A stretch of DNA of 54,290 bases. It comes from an uncultured bacterium (GTDB lineage Bacteria > Bacillota > Clostridia > Lachnospirales > Lachnospiraceae). Position 1 is the stretch's first letter. Each line of letters begins with the position of its first letter. This document shows positions 36,168 through 40,357 of the stretch, one piece after another. The stretch spans positions 1-54,290 of the forward strand of contig CANCXX010000029.1 in the NCBI GenBank assembly GCA_947381965.1, in the 5' to 3' direction. Under the pieces are notes generated by a model. The model was not told the DNA's origin. It saw only the letters and a list, made by a program, of their open reading frames with translations, and did no database searches. A program made the position numbers and the translations under genes.

Positions 36168-37490
36168 TTACTCCACCTTATCCTTACATTTTACCCTGAA
36201 TATTCTGCGCAGGGATTCGTCAATCCGTTCTTCAGACAGTGTTCCATTATTCACTGCATCCAGCACGCCATTATAAGCCGCCTCAAAATCTTCCGGCATC
36301 AGAATCATATCCACACCTGCCTGAAGCGCTTTTACTGCTGCCTCCTGCGATGTATAATATTCTGTAATGGCACCCATATTCATAGCATCGGTAATAATAA
36401 TTCCCTGAAATCCAAGCTGCCCTCTTAGAATTTCCGTAATCATTTTTTCTGAAAGAGATGCAGGCGTGTTATCTCCCGTAACGTTCTCAAGGGAAATATG
36501 TCCGACCATTATAAAATCGGTTCCTGCCCCAATGCCCGCCTGATAAACCGGAAAGTCTGTTGCAGATAAGTCATCAAGGGTCTTTGCTGAATTTGCCATA
36601 CCTGAATGGGTATCATCAGAAGTATCCCCCAGCCCCGGAAAATGTTTCATGCAGGCGCTGACGCCGTTGCTCTGCAGACCTTCTACCACCGCCGATGCCA
36701 TAGATGCCACCATCCCTGGGTCTGTGCCAAAGGAACGGCTTCCTATTACTGTATTTCCTTCCACTATTACATCCGCAACCGGAGCAAAGTCCATGTTAAA
36801 TCCAAAACCTGAAAGATAGCTTCCAATCGCCGCCCCTGCCTCTCTTGCTGCCGCCGAATCCCCAGAAGACGCAATATCAGCCATATTTCCCACATTATCC
36901 GCAAGACCGTTCTCTGCAACTCTGCTTACTGTCCCGCCTTCTTCGTCCACGCCAAGAAAAATAGGAAACTTGCTCCAGTCCCTGGTATTTTGAAGCATCT
37001 CTGTCAGCTGTTCGGCACTCTGGATATTCTTGGAAAAGTAAATCAGCCCGCCTACCGGGTGCTCTCCCAACTTTTCTTTGGTAGTATCCCCTGCTTTAAT
37101 AACCGTATCCGTACCAGTTAGGGCTTCCGGCGTAATCATAAAAAGTCCGGCCACCTTTTCCTCCCGTGTCATTCCCGAAATCCAGGAGTTAACCACTTCC
37201 TCCGTATAGTCAGTTTCCTCTACAGGTTCTGTCATTTCCTCCGGTGCCTCCACCGTTGGCGTTTCTTCTTCCATTTCTGAAAGCTCTTCAAGTTGTTTCT
37301 GAAGCTCTTCCGCATGTTTTTTGTCATTTACCATTGACAAAAGTTTTTTCACTCCCATCACCACTCCCAAAACCAGTCCGGCAAGAAAAATAACAAGAAC
37401 CAGATAGGATATAATCTGATTTCTTAATCTGCGCTTCCTTCTGAATTCTCTTCTGTCCATCTCTTCAACAATTGATTCATCATTTGCCAT
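36168..37490 (-). CDS. Membrane-anchored GH3 beta-N-acetylhexosaminidase (NagZ-like)
   Basis: A 440-residue glycosidase predicted to trim N-acetylhexosamine (for example GlcNAc-MurNAc) from peptidoglycan fragments. A basic cytoplasmic stub is followed by a TM helix (about 24-46) and an acidic, Glu/Gln-rich coiled linker (about 50-95). The GH3 barrel then shows SACMKHFPGLGDTSDDTHSG (about 277-297), the NagZ loop with the catalytic His/Asp pair, and IIITDAMNMGAI with the nucleophile Asp near residue 367. The anchor would place it on the outer face. GGAGG is 10 nt before the ATG at 37490, and a promoter lies at 37550-37579. Confidence 0.92.
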   Translation of the reverse strand: MANDESIVEEMDRREFRRKRRLRNQIISYLVLVIFLAGLVLGVVMGVKKLLSMVNDKKHAEELQKQLEELSEMEEETPTVEAPEEMTEPVEETDYTEEVVNSWISGMTREEKVAGLFMITPEALTGTDTVIKAGDTTKEKLGEHPVGGLIYFSKNIQSAEQLTEMLQNTRDWSKFPIFLGVDEEGGTVSRVAENGLADNVGNMADIASSGDSAAAREAGAAIGSYLSGFGFNMDFAPVADVIVEGNTVIGSRSFGTDPGMVASMASAVVEGLQSNGVSACMKHFPGLGDTSDDTHSGMANSAKTLDDLSATDFPVYQAGIGAGTDFIMVGHISLENVTGDNTPASLSEKMITEILRGQLGFQGIIITDAMNMGAITEYYTSQEAAVKALQAGVDMILMPEDFEAAYNGVLDAVNNGTLSEERIDESLRRIFRVKCKDKVE

Positions 37491-37549
37491 ATTACTCTTA
37501 CCTCCGTACACTCTATAATAACTTATTTGCCATCTGATTTCCACAAGAA

Positions 37550-37579
37550 ATTATACAGAATGACATCACAGATTAACAA
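37550..37579 (-). promoter_or_regulatory. Promoter of the GH3 gene
   Basis: Minus-strand TTGTTA (37574-37579) and TATAAT (37550-37555) with an 18-bp spacer lie about 60 bp before the GH3 ATG. This gives GH3 a promoter separate from the RNA unit upstream. Confidence 0.6.
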
Positions 37580-37615
37580 AACATTTTTATACCACAGATA
37601 TCAGGTACCAGCAGT

Positions 37616-37633
37616 CCTGTCATCTCTGACAGG
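37616..37633 (-). other. Perfect 7-bp hairpin with tetraloop
   Basis: CCTGTCA (37616-37622) and TGACAGG (37627-37633) enclose a 4-nt loop (GAGA on the minus strand). It lies right behind the RNA terminator and ahead of the GH3 promoter. Its role is unknown. Confidence 0.5.
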
Positions 37634-37639
37634 AAATAA

Positions 37640-38003
37640 TAAAAGCGGGTACCAATCACTCTCGACTAATACCCGCTTCTAAACTATGCTATCCAATGGT
37701 TTTTACCTCTCTTTCCTTTTTATTGATAACACCCTATTCAGTTTTTCTTTTTCTCTTTCGTATCTCTCTCCTTTTTCTTTTGTACTGGTGTACTGTAACG
37801 TTTCTGTTTTTCCTTTGTAAATCGTTACCTTTTCTTTTGTACCTGATACGAATTTGAAATTCGCTCTCTTTAGTACTTTGCTCTTTTGTACCTTAAAAGC
37901 TTAACTTTTTCACATTTTACTATTTTTTAATAGCTTATCTTATGTTTTTGGTGGTCCGTACCTTCCTTTCTTTAAGATTTTATCTATGTGAATTTGTTTT
38001 TGT
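37640..38003 (-). ncRNA. Candidate structured non-coding RNA, about 360 nt
   Basis: A transcription unit without a credible protein. The minus strand has a perfect consensus SigA promoter at 38010-38038 and an intrinsic terminator at 37643-37678. Between them the transcript is purine-rich and self-complementary: an 8-bp helix (37757-37764 with 37845-37852), a 6-bp helix nested inside it (37795-37800 with 37823-37828), and short hairpins at 37849-37863 and 37920-37933. The motif GTACAAAAGA (or GTACTAAAGA) occurs four times. No 6S, tmRNA, RNase P, SRP or T-box signature was seen. A 66-codon open stretch exists but has no start codon. Confidence 0.6.
37643..37678 (-). terminator. Terminator of the candidate RNA
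   Basis: AAGCGGGTA (37643-37651) and TACCCGCTT (37670-37678) form a perfect 9-bp stem with an 18-nt loop. On the minus strand it is followed by TTATTATTT. Confidence 0.8.
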
Positions 38004-38009
38004 AAGTTT

Positions 38010-38038
38010 ATTATAACCGCCACTTTTTAATTTGTCAA
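38010..38038 (-). promoter_or_regulatory. Perfect consensus SigA promoter of the candidate RNA
   Basis: Minus-strand TTGACA (38033-38038) and TATAAT (38010-38015) with exactly 17 bp between. This is the only promoter in the window matching both hexamers perfectly, which argues for constitutive high transcription leftward from about 38003. Confidence 0.85.
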
Positions 38039-38258
38039 CACAATTTTTCATTTTTTTCTTTATTTTTTCATTATTTGATATTATCCGCATCTGCCAGTTG
38101 GATATTTAACAAATAAATACCTATAAATATTTGATATTCTTTGAAATTCCTGGTTGGGAACCAGACAATAATTTCCCATTTATTATACAAAACTTACAAA
38201 TCACTGACTGTAATTTTCATAATTTCCAGAAAAATAACAGTCAAAAAGTCAAATTTTT

Positions 38259-38288
38259 ATTGTATTCGCTAAAAAATAGCGATACAAT
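38259..38288 (+). promoter_or_regulatory. Promoter of the second MCP embedded in an inverted repeat
   Basis: ATTGTATTCGCTA (38259-38271) and TAGCGATACAAT (38277-38288) are inverted copies with one extra T. The arms coincide with a -35 (TTGTAT, 38260-38265) and a -10 (TACAAT, 38283-38288) at 17-bp spacing. The start would be near 38295, with a leader of about 30 nt. A dimeric regulator covering both hexamers is plausible. Confidence 0.6.
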
Positions 38289-38323
38289 AAAAAGAAAAAC
38301 CTAAAAGCACAGGGGGGATACGC

Positions 38324-40357
38324 ATGGGAGCGCCTGAACGAAAAACAAATGCAAGAAAAAAAATAGCTGATGAAATTCTCTACCAGATTGGAGGAAGCGC
38401 CATTTTGGTTCTTCTGCTTATAGCAGCTGCCGCTATTTGTATGGTTGGTTGGCTGATTATTACATCAAAAGAAACAGAACTAACGCAGGAGTCCAATGCT
38501 GCTGCAAGCCAGATCACAGGATTTCTGGAACAATATACCAAAAGTGTGGAACAGCTGGCTGTCAATCCCGAAATAAAGCATGTTCTGAAGGAAACTAAAC
38601 CTGGAGATGATTTCAGCAGCGCAGAAAAAATGGACACGGTAATGGACAATCTCATTGGGATTGCAAATACTGATACCGATAATGTTATGGCTGTGTGGGT
38701 TTCTGATCTGGATACAAGCTCGTTAAAACAGTCTGACGGCTTTACAAGCGAAGACGGCTGGGATATTACAGGACGTGGATGGTATGGATGTATTGAAACA
38801 AAGGAGCTTATACTTACAGAACCATACATTGATTCATCCACCGGCAAAATGATTTTAAGCGCCGCAGCCCCTGTAATAGACGACTCCACAGGAACTGTTC
38901 TCGGTGCAGTGGGTATGGACATCGCACTGGATCACATGACAGAAATTATGAGCAGATACAAAATCGGCCAAAACGGATATATCCTGCTTTTATCTGAAAG
39001 CGGCACTTTCCTCTATCATCCGCAGAATGAAATCATCCAAAAGAATATTAAGGATGTGAACATATCCCAAAATGTTATAGATGCAGTCAACTCAAAAAGA
39101 GATGAATTTTTAAAATACAAAACTGATGGTCACACAAAATACGGCTCCTTGCAGCAGGCCGGAAATACCGGATATATTGTGCTTAGCAGTATGCCTGCCT
39201 CAGAATATTATGCAATGATGACTGCGATGATTATTGCACTGGTTATTCTCTTTGCCGCCGGCATTTTCCTAATCGCAGTAAGTATCCAAAAAAGCGCAAA
39301 AAAACTTACAAAGCCAATTCTGGAACTGAATCATACAGCCCAACAGCTTGCTGACGGAAATCTGGATGTAAACCTTCATATAACAAGCGAAGATGAAATC
39401 GGTGAGCTGGGTGAATCATTCCAAAAGACAGTTAACCGGCTGAAAGAATATATTACATACATAGATGAAACGTCAGATGTACTTGCCCGGATTGCTGATG
39501 GAAAGCTCAGCGTCCAGCTGAAAAATGAATATGTGGGAGAATTCCAAAAGATAAAGACTGCCCTGCTGAATATTTCAGATTCCATGAACCAGGTTATGAT
39601 TGGAATTAATGAAAGTGCAGAACGTGTATCTGTTGGAGCATCAGAGCTTGCCACTGCATCCCAGGCTTTGGCGGAAGGCGCCCAAACCCAGGCCGCATCT
39701 ATTGAAGAGCTTGCAGCAACAACAAACACTCTTGCAGACCAGGTGGAAAGCAGCCGCAAGGAAGCTGAGGCTTCTGCCAAAGCAACTGCACAGGCTGCAA
39801 CAATGATTGACCAGAATCAGGAAAAAATGAAACTGATGATGGATGCCATGAACGAAATTCACCAAACCTCCCAGAAGGTGGTAGGGATCATTCAGACCAT
39901 CGAGGATATTGCATCAGAAACAAATCTTCTGTCCTTAAACGCTTCTATAGAAGCCGCCCGTGCCGGTGAAGCCGGAAGAGGCTTTGCTGTAGTCGCCGAT
40001 GAAATCGGAAAACTGGCATTAGAAAGTTCCAAGGCAGCAAGCACCACAAGAGAACTGATTGAAATCTCAATGGAAGAAATCAACAAGGGAAACACTATTG
40101 CTTCCGGCGCCATGGATTCGCTGAAAGAATCCGTAAGCGTTGTCAACCATGTAAACGAAATGATTCAGGGAACAGCCGAGACCGCCGCTGTACAAGCTGA
40201 AAATATGAGACAGCTCCGCCTGGGAATTGAAGAAATTACTCATGGAATACATGATAACTCTGCCGCTTCCCAAGAAACCTCCGCAACCTCTGAAGAATTG
40301 GCATCTCAGGCTGAATTACTAAATAAAATGGTGCAAAAATTTGAAATCTGCCAGTAA
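38324..40357 (+). CDS. Methyl-accepting chemotaxis protein with dCache-type sensor
   Basis: A 677-residue chemoreceptor. TM1 lies at about 27-50 and TM2 at about 300-322, enclosing a 250-residue extracellular double-Cache sensor ([19 protein letters not shown] and [18 protein letters not shown] are typical Cache blocks), a class that binds amino acids, organic acids or purines. HAMP ([20 protein letters not shown]) and a signalling coiled coil follow. The tip, [21 protein letters not shown] near residues 530-550, differs slightly from the other MCP (NAS for NAA). GGGGGG lies 6 nt before the ATG. It is not a close paralogue of the MCP at 17648 in the sensor region. Confidence 0.95.

Follow-up and report, generated by a model that had tools for sequence, protein, structure and literature searches.

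The minus strand of the window carries a compact predicted transcription unit between two protein genes. The window is the whole stretch of DNA that was analysed, 54,290 nt from an uncultured bacterium, and the genes, named from their sequences, are GH3-like downstream of the RNA and chemotaxis-receptor-like upstream of it, the latter in divergent orientation. The RNA is expected from the promoter position to start near 38003 and spans about 365 nt from promoter to terminator. Its features, in the order of transcription, are as follows.

38010..38038, minus strand: sigma-70-type promoter, TTGACA-17-TATAAT, 12/12 consensus match
37982..37992, minus strand: recurrent element TTCACATAGAT, seen by eye in many relatives
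37940..37973, minus strand: module A, with SD-like AAAGAAAGGAAGG, spacer TACGGACCA and then CCA AAA ACA TAA, CCA taking the place of the start codon; predicted 16S duplex -13.9 kcal/mol
37776..37892, minus strand: repeats of GTACAAAAGA type (37892-37882, 37877-37867, 37843-37833, 37786-37776), similar repeats occurring in relatives
37845..37852, minus strand: outer helix, 5' strand TTCGTATC, retained by the 8 closest sequences but weakly supported across the broad alignment
37823..37828, minus strand: inner helix, 5' strand GTAACG, covariation in relatives
37795..37800, minus strand: inner helix, 3' strand CGTTAC, covariation in relatives
37782..37793, minus strand: small hairpin GTAC-ACCA-GTAC, 97.6% of cells paired, C-G changed to U-A in 6 sequences
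37757..37764, minus strand: outer helix, 3' strand GATACGAA, conserved as its 5' strand
37698..37714, minus strand: Shine-Dalgarno (SD) region AAAGAGAGGTAAAAACC of mini-ORF D, predicted 16S-tail duplex -13.9 kcal/mol
37679..37696, minus strand: mini-ORF D, TTG GAT AGC ATA GTT TAG (start, Asp-Ser-Ile-Val, stop), kept by relatives
37640..37681, minus strand: intrinsic terminator, 19 pairs and a T-rich tail, its stem beginning at the stop codon of mini-ORF D

The initial annotation had described this region as purine-rich, preceded by a perfect TTGACA-17-TATAAT promoter and closed by a clean intrinsic terminator, and these descriptions hold. A scan of 37000-38800 found 12 promoter-like sites, compared with 4.3 (sd 2.1) in shuffled sequence, and the site at 38038-38010 is the sole perfect one. 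In 68 of the 99 related loci with enough upstream sequence, the 450 nt preceding the core motif include a promoter matching 11-12 of the 12 consensus positions, as against 4 of 495 shuffles. Terminators were found in 62 of 101 loci scanned, and the terminator stem covaries among relatives.

Neighbouring genes of related loci indicate that the RNA is an independent unit. Neighbours were counted at 102 loci, those among 120 whose sequence extends to a downstream gene. This gene is GH3-like in 22 loci, belongs to one of many other families elsewhere, and lies on the same strand as the RNA in 66 loci and on the opposite strand in 36; upstream neighbours likewise vary among loci. Since the neighbours vary in family and strand, the RNA is not simply the leader of one gene, and a cis leader of the GH3-like gene was rejected on this ground. 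The lack of conserved neighbours also speaks for action in trans. The stand-alone unit of about 360 nt proposed initially is thus borne out by its own promoter and terminator and by the varied neighbours in relatives. A separate promoter for the GH3-like gene had also been invoked, and a site matching 10 of 12 positions is indeed present at 37579-37550, but it is weak evidence because shuffles of the stretch give 4.3 sites matching at least 9 of 12. The apparent independence from GH3 is therefore better shown by the relatives' neighbours than by the GH3 promoter.

The RNA ends in a short reading frame that is conserved directly before the terminator. The region had been said to contain no credible ORF; this is contradicted by the SD-led five-codon frame TTG-GAT-AGC-ATA-GTT-TAG at 37696-37679, which relatives keep. 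Among the 62 loci with a terminator, to which this count was restricted, an SD-led ORF of no more than 8 codons stops within 9 nt of the stem in 47, and the scan found no such ORF at the remaining 15. Permuting the upstream 70 nt gave a mean of 3.4 and a maximum of 8 (200 shuffles), and places 400 nt downstream gave 4 of 61. In a set of 109 units picked for ATG, TTG or GTG at the start place, the starts are ATG in 68, TTG in 36 and GTG in 5; CTG occurs there in one of 23 further sites. Codon 2 is GAT in 37 of the 109 units, GAC in 35, GAA in 5 and GAG in 1, in counts that avoid the set where one of three search patterns required GA after the start codon. The large excess of GAT and GAC over GAA and GAG is easier to explain by an Asp codon than by a fixed RNA motif. 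Stop codons alternate between TAG, TAA and TGA across aligned relatives. Taken at the level of sequence, these start, codon-2 and stop patterns are signs of translation of the terminal mini-ORF. In the window (37731-37679), the start codon of mini-ORF D can pair with a TATCCAA-like stretch just 5' of its SD. A start-hiding hairpin of this TATCCAA/TTGGATA type was rejected as a general feature: the shuffle fraction is at most 0.04 in 6 of 8 RNAs of the window clade, but 47 RNAs drawn more broadly from the loci with a terminator show no excess. A pairing of the CCR of module A with the UGG of the terminal start, suggested by RNAalifold, comprises three pairs, two of them invariant, and is not relied on.

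Most conserved near the 5' end is a second type of unit that resembles a mini-ORF whose start codon has been replaced. The consensus of these start-less units in the 5' block is AAAGRNAGGTACRGACC-A-CCR-AAA-ACR-TAA, and their first codons are CCR, ACA, AAG or ATC; the strong SD is kept and the in-frame stop mostly so. Of 167 start-less units, 106 have Thr as their third codon (20 of them ACT), and those that stop at codon 4 do so mostly with TAA (112 units), seldom with TAG (6) or TGA (3). The idea that module A lies inside a longer ORF begun further upstream was rejected, as 115 of the 167 units have no start codon before an upstream stop. For counts of in-frame stops, locus L041 and sites lacking a purine-rich upstream stretch were omitted to remove gene background (the start-codon and codon-2 counts retain them). 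On this basis, 146 of 170 CCN units have an in-frame stop within 6 codons, whereas shuffles average 73.7 and reach at most 95, and the other two frames give 48 and 88; for start-codon units the figure is 117 of 136, with a shuffled mean of 54.3, a maximum of 70, and 58 and 51 in the other frames. Units with any other first codon stay within chance, with a near in-frame stop in 16 of 27 compared to a mean of 11.0 and a maximum of 18, and about half of these 27 resemble gene background. In 99 of 157 start-less units the stop falls at one place; among the other 58 units, 33 have a near in-frame stop, compared with 24.6 expected and a maximum of 37 in 500 shuffles. Selection for a stop as such is consequently only weakly shown in start-less units, and their stop could possibly be a fixed UAA motif.

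Tandem arrays in some relatives bridge, by eye, the start-codon and start-less classes. The array at locus L273 contains, as read by eye, 11 tandem units, mostly spaced 53-59 nt apart, with ATG as codon 1 seven times, followed by ACA, AAG, CCA and CCA, and with an in-frame stop in each. Likewise by eye, L272 has ATC as codon 1 four times, with a stop, and L275 has ATG, AAG and ACA. The arrays of L273 and L275 end in start-less units. In L271, from another family of the class, ATG-TTC-CGG-stop is seen by eye three times, followed by a ten-codon ORF and then a terminator.

Start-less units have the strongest predicted pairing with the 3' end of 16S rRNA. The sequence of this end, GGATCACCTCCTTTCTAAGGA, was read from four relatives, two of six genomes giving no match; the window genome's own 16S copy was searched for and not found. 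Predicted duplexes with the 16S tail have their lowest median, -13.7 kcal/mol, in start-less units (n=98); start-codon units follow with -11.2 kcal/mol (n=54), ahead of the first ATGs of ORFs of at least 120 aa in the same loci (-6.4 kcal/mol, n=209) and random 22-mers (-4.1 kcal/mol, n=202). Part of this difference stems from how the sites were chosen: start-less units had been seeded with AGGTAC, start-codon units had been filtered for 70% purines upstream, and some ORFs truly start elsewhere than at their first ATG. With medians below all others, the sites unable to start normally thus have the strongest predicted SD. The proportion of start-less units with at least 7 consecutive matched bases falls from 68% to 9% when the upstream 14 nt are shuffled and the core is kept. 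The core GGTACRGACC can also form a small hairpin (GGU/ACC, 96.8% of cells), which would compete with SD pairing. Module A also contains GGAAGGTACGG, similar to GGAAGGTGCGG, which lies in 16S immediately 5' of the anti-SD (L259-L264); this likeness may be coincidence.

Between these two units lies a folded core. The nested helices proposed initially are both perfect in sequence and part of the minimum-energy fold, which has a z-score of -7.75; without the terminator, the preceding 323 nt give -5.2, and in each case none of 100 shuffles folded as well. For covariation, RNAs were bounded at 27 of 30 loci (L104, L048 and L019 were dropped), all chosen for a terminal mini-ORF, and 22 of the 27 were aligned (21 distinct sequences, window included). 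The inner helix stood up to the check for compensatory changes that had been suggested: 96.8% of cells are paired and 5 of 6 pairs have a change on both sides, four of the five in one sequence each. Conservation of the outer helix is less general, with 55.6% of cells paired in the broad alignment, in part because of misalignment, as judged by eye. Jointly, the four helices beat 500 of 500 shuffles in cells paired, in double-change pairs and cells and in covariation score; for further pair types, 484 of 500 shuffles reach the observed value. Loci L021, L025, L039, L043, L063 and L279 have, by eye, a hairpin-like element around ATGACGAGAAAG with co-changing flanks (TGATA/TATCA, TTATA/TATAA, TCATAA/TTATGA). 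The region is a conserved, previously unrecognised RNA with a folded core, as first suspected, and since its most conserved blocks are SD-led mini-reading-frames, the label of structured non-coding RNA describes only part of it.

RNAs of this kind are widespread in one bacterial family. A DNA search with the window RNA gave matches in 54 of 200 same-family genomes, its own included, clustering on two blocks, one near the 5' end and one at the 3' end. When 200 genomes of the family were searched with a 47-nt signature model, built from 60 of 70 motif stretches after 10 odd ones were excluded by eye, E<=0.01 was reached in 91 and E<=1e-5 in 73; the matched genomes include some that supplied the model's sequences, and the search filters lose weak matches. 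Of 397 genomes of the family, 100 contain the 14-nt core AGGTACRGACCACC, compared with 12 for a reversed-pattern control (controls were counted by hand from match tables). Identification of the RNA-bearing family as Lachnospiraceae rests on titled records: 64 of 80 titled records with the motif among the matches listed, which hold at least 119 stretches, are Lachnospiraceae or genera assigned there. Blautia, Mediterraneibacter, Roseburia, Dorea, Enterocloster and others are those we take to belong to this family. The remaining titles among the matches listed are mostly 'Clostridiales', 'Eubacteriales' or Ruminococcus, and one Lewinella match was set aside as chance. In the window's genome, the locus is the only long match to the RNA, all others being shorter than 50 nt with E-values of 0.14 or worse; the genome holds one exact AGGTACRGWCCACC, at this locus, and one site with a mismatch on contig C1.

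The anatomy of the RNA, comprising promoter, terminator, terminal mini-ORF, SD units and covarying core, is well supported by the sequence comparisons and suggests a function at the ribosome. Strong SD sites combined with frames of few codons make ribosome catching, rather than protein coding, probable. We tentatively favour, at nearly an even chance, a stand-alone regulatory RNA that would engage ribosomes and capture initiating 30S subunits. Such an RNA would be built of SD-led mini-reading-frames of 2-6 codons, the one on the terminator side usually keeping a usable start codon. Its strong SD sites would bind 30S subunits. At start-less units, a 30S subunit would be unable to form a proper initiation complex and would be held there, and mini-ORFs would occupy ribosomes for a few codons only. 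The in-frame stop may serve to release ribosomes that start at the altered codon. The RNA could thereby take up free initiating ribosomes, or sense and report on them, and the folded core (GTAACG/CGTTAC and GTAC hairpin) might bind a protein or stabilise the RNA. Counting against ribosome capture, the window RNA contains two units only, few for a titrator.

Other functions would explain parts of this anatomy. CsrB/RsmZ-type sponge RNAs have a strong promoter, a length of about 360 nt, repeated GGA-containing sites and their own terminator, and the window RNA is like them in promoter strength, size, sites and terminator. It could therefore be a protein-binding sponge whose purine-rich GTACAAAAGA repeats, present in the window and in relatives, bind CsrA, Hfq or another protein, with the SD-like GGA sites as targets. 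We consider this unlikely: csrA is no commoner in genomes with the exact module A motif (23 of 49) than in those lacking it (85 of 151; Fisher p = 0.32), so the RNA does not require CsrA, and a sponge leaves the alternation of ATG, TTG and GTG, the Asp codons and the in-frame stops unexplained. The family thus differs from CsrB/RsmZ both in lacking a csrA link and in its reading-frame constraints. The window genome (G000) itself has three csrA-like matches above the family cut-off, on contigs C17, C32 and C25. Alternatively, translation of the terminal mini-ORF might block the terminator and let polymerase enter the downstream gene. In favour of such transcription attenuation, 47 of 62 terminators have the stop no more than 9 nt from their stem, a GH3-like gene follows the RNA both in the window and at 22 of 102 loci, and 66 of 102 downstream genes share its strand; trpL-type leader-peptide attenuators, in the part of PMC8708949 compared here, share the short ORF beside an intrinsic terminator. 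Unlike these, the window family has no conserved downstream gene or strand, with 36 of 102 downstream genes in opposite orientation and many families among them, which makes attenuation improbable.

Two further explanations place the function in the translated product or in the act of translation. Short peptides of the MDSIV, MDEIV or MIEESK type could themselves be the product, for example as a signal; codon 2 is mostly Asp with both codons in use, and related peptides recur (MIEESK by eye), but the peptides differ widely between genera, many units encode 2-3 residues, and start-less units encode none by ordinary initiation. We regard a peptide product as very improbable. No greater weight is given to a toxic-minigene effector, in which translation of the mini-ORFs would cause peptidyl-tRNA drop-off and slow translation. 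Toxic-minigene features described in the part of PMC8708949 compared include ACT as last codon and a UAA stop, and the units here have 2-6 codons, with codon 3 a Thr codon (106 of 167; ACT in 20) and a TAA stop (112) in start-less units. The units with these features, however, lack a start codon, and the terminal unit often ends in TAG. The axe-txe mg2, LEE1 and LEE4 minigenes, again from the part of PMC8708949 compared, are short SD-led ORFs (2-6 codons) in leaders, where they hold ribosomes or guide them. The terminal unit is likewise an SD-led ORF of this length with a usable start, which start-less units lack. As far as that source describes them, these minigenes act in cis upstream of a gene, whereas the window RNA is free, ended by a terminator, sometimes arrayed and often start-less; its neighbours are not conserved, so the position in cis upstream of a regulated gene that goes with the minigene type does not apply.

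Comparison with known RNAs indicates that the family is apparently new in anatomy, a judgement on its make-up and not proof of absence from print. Searching the whole window against Rfam 15 at gathering thresholds gave one match, a tRNA elsewhere, and none in the RNA region; a permissive search of 37500-38330 gave no score near a cut-off. The initial statement that no known RNA class was recognisable, which had called for such a search, is thus upheld, no family having reached threshold in either. No RNA of such make-up stood out in the titles and abstract openings of the open-licence papers listed. The terms Lachnospiraceae, Blautia, Roseburia and Shine are all absent from the main text of PMC8040213; the 3161 candidates of that study may include the window RNA. 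More tentative than ribosome capture by this RNA, and somewhat less than evenly probable, is the wider proposal of an undescribed RNA class: free, strongly promoted RNAs with minimal or start-less frames that would capture 30S subunits and set or sense the pool of free ribosomes, found through the Lachnospiraceae and with likely cousins in other Clostridia families. If so, translation would be controlled globally via a free RNA of ribosome-binding sites, unlike base-pairing sRNAs, protein sponges and riboswitches. The family would also offer a natural experiment on start-less initiation sites, as in the L273 array, where ATG gives way to CCA with SD and stop kept. Five-codon genes on small RNAs elude gene finders and RNA-family searches alike. 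Lachnospiraceae are among the commonest mammalian gut bacteria.

Outside the family, matches to the 14-nt core are at the level of controls. The 47-nt model found 10 of 190 Clostridia genomes from other families at E<=0.01 and 0 of 190 at E<=1e-5. For the 14-nt core, the counts are 1 of 247 genomes from the order's other families, where the reversed-pattern control gives 2, and 3 of 281 from the class beyond the family, where it gives 5. The exact-pattern hits at L255-L258, likewise from outside the family, were rejected because by eye they resemble ordinary coding stretches. The kind of RNA, as judged by its units, may nevertheless be wider than Lachnospiraceae. At three loci from other Clostridia families, L271 (G831), L282 (G695) and L283 (G681), a promoter-like stretch is followed directly by a unit of the type AAGGAGGTAC.GTCC.ATG or AAGGAAGGTAC.GTCCAATG, with two codons and a stop. 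Near position 10968 of L157, on the viral-collection contig IMGVR_UViG_2802429519, there is an apparent copy of this RNA, equipped with a promoter, units, a terminal mini-ORF and a terminator; it may represent the host flank of a prophage.
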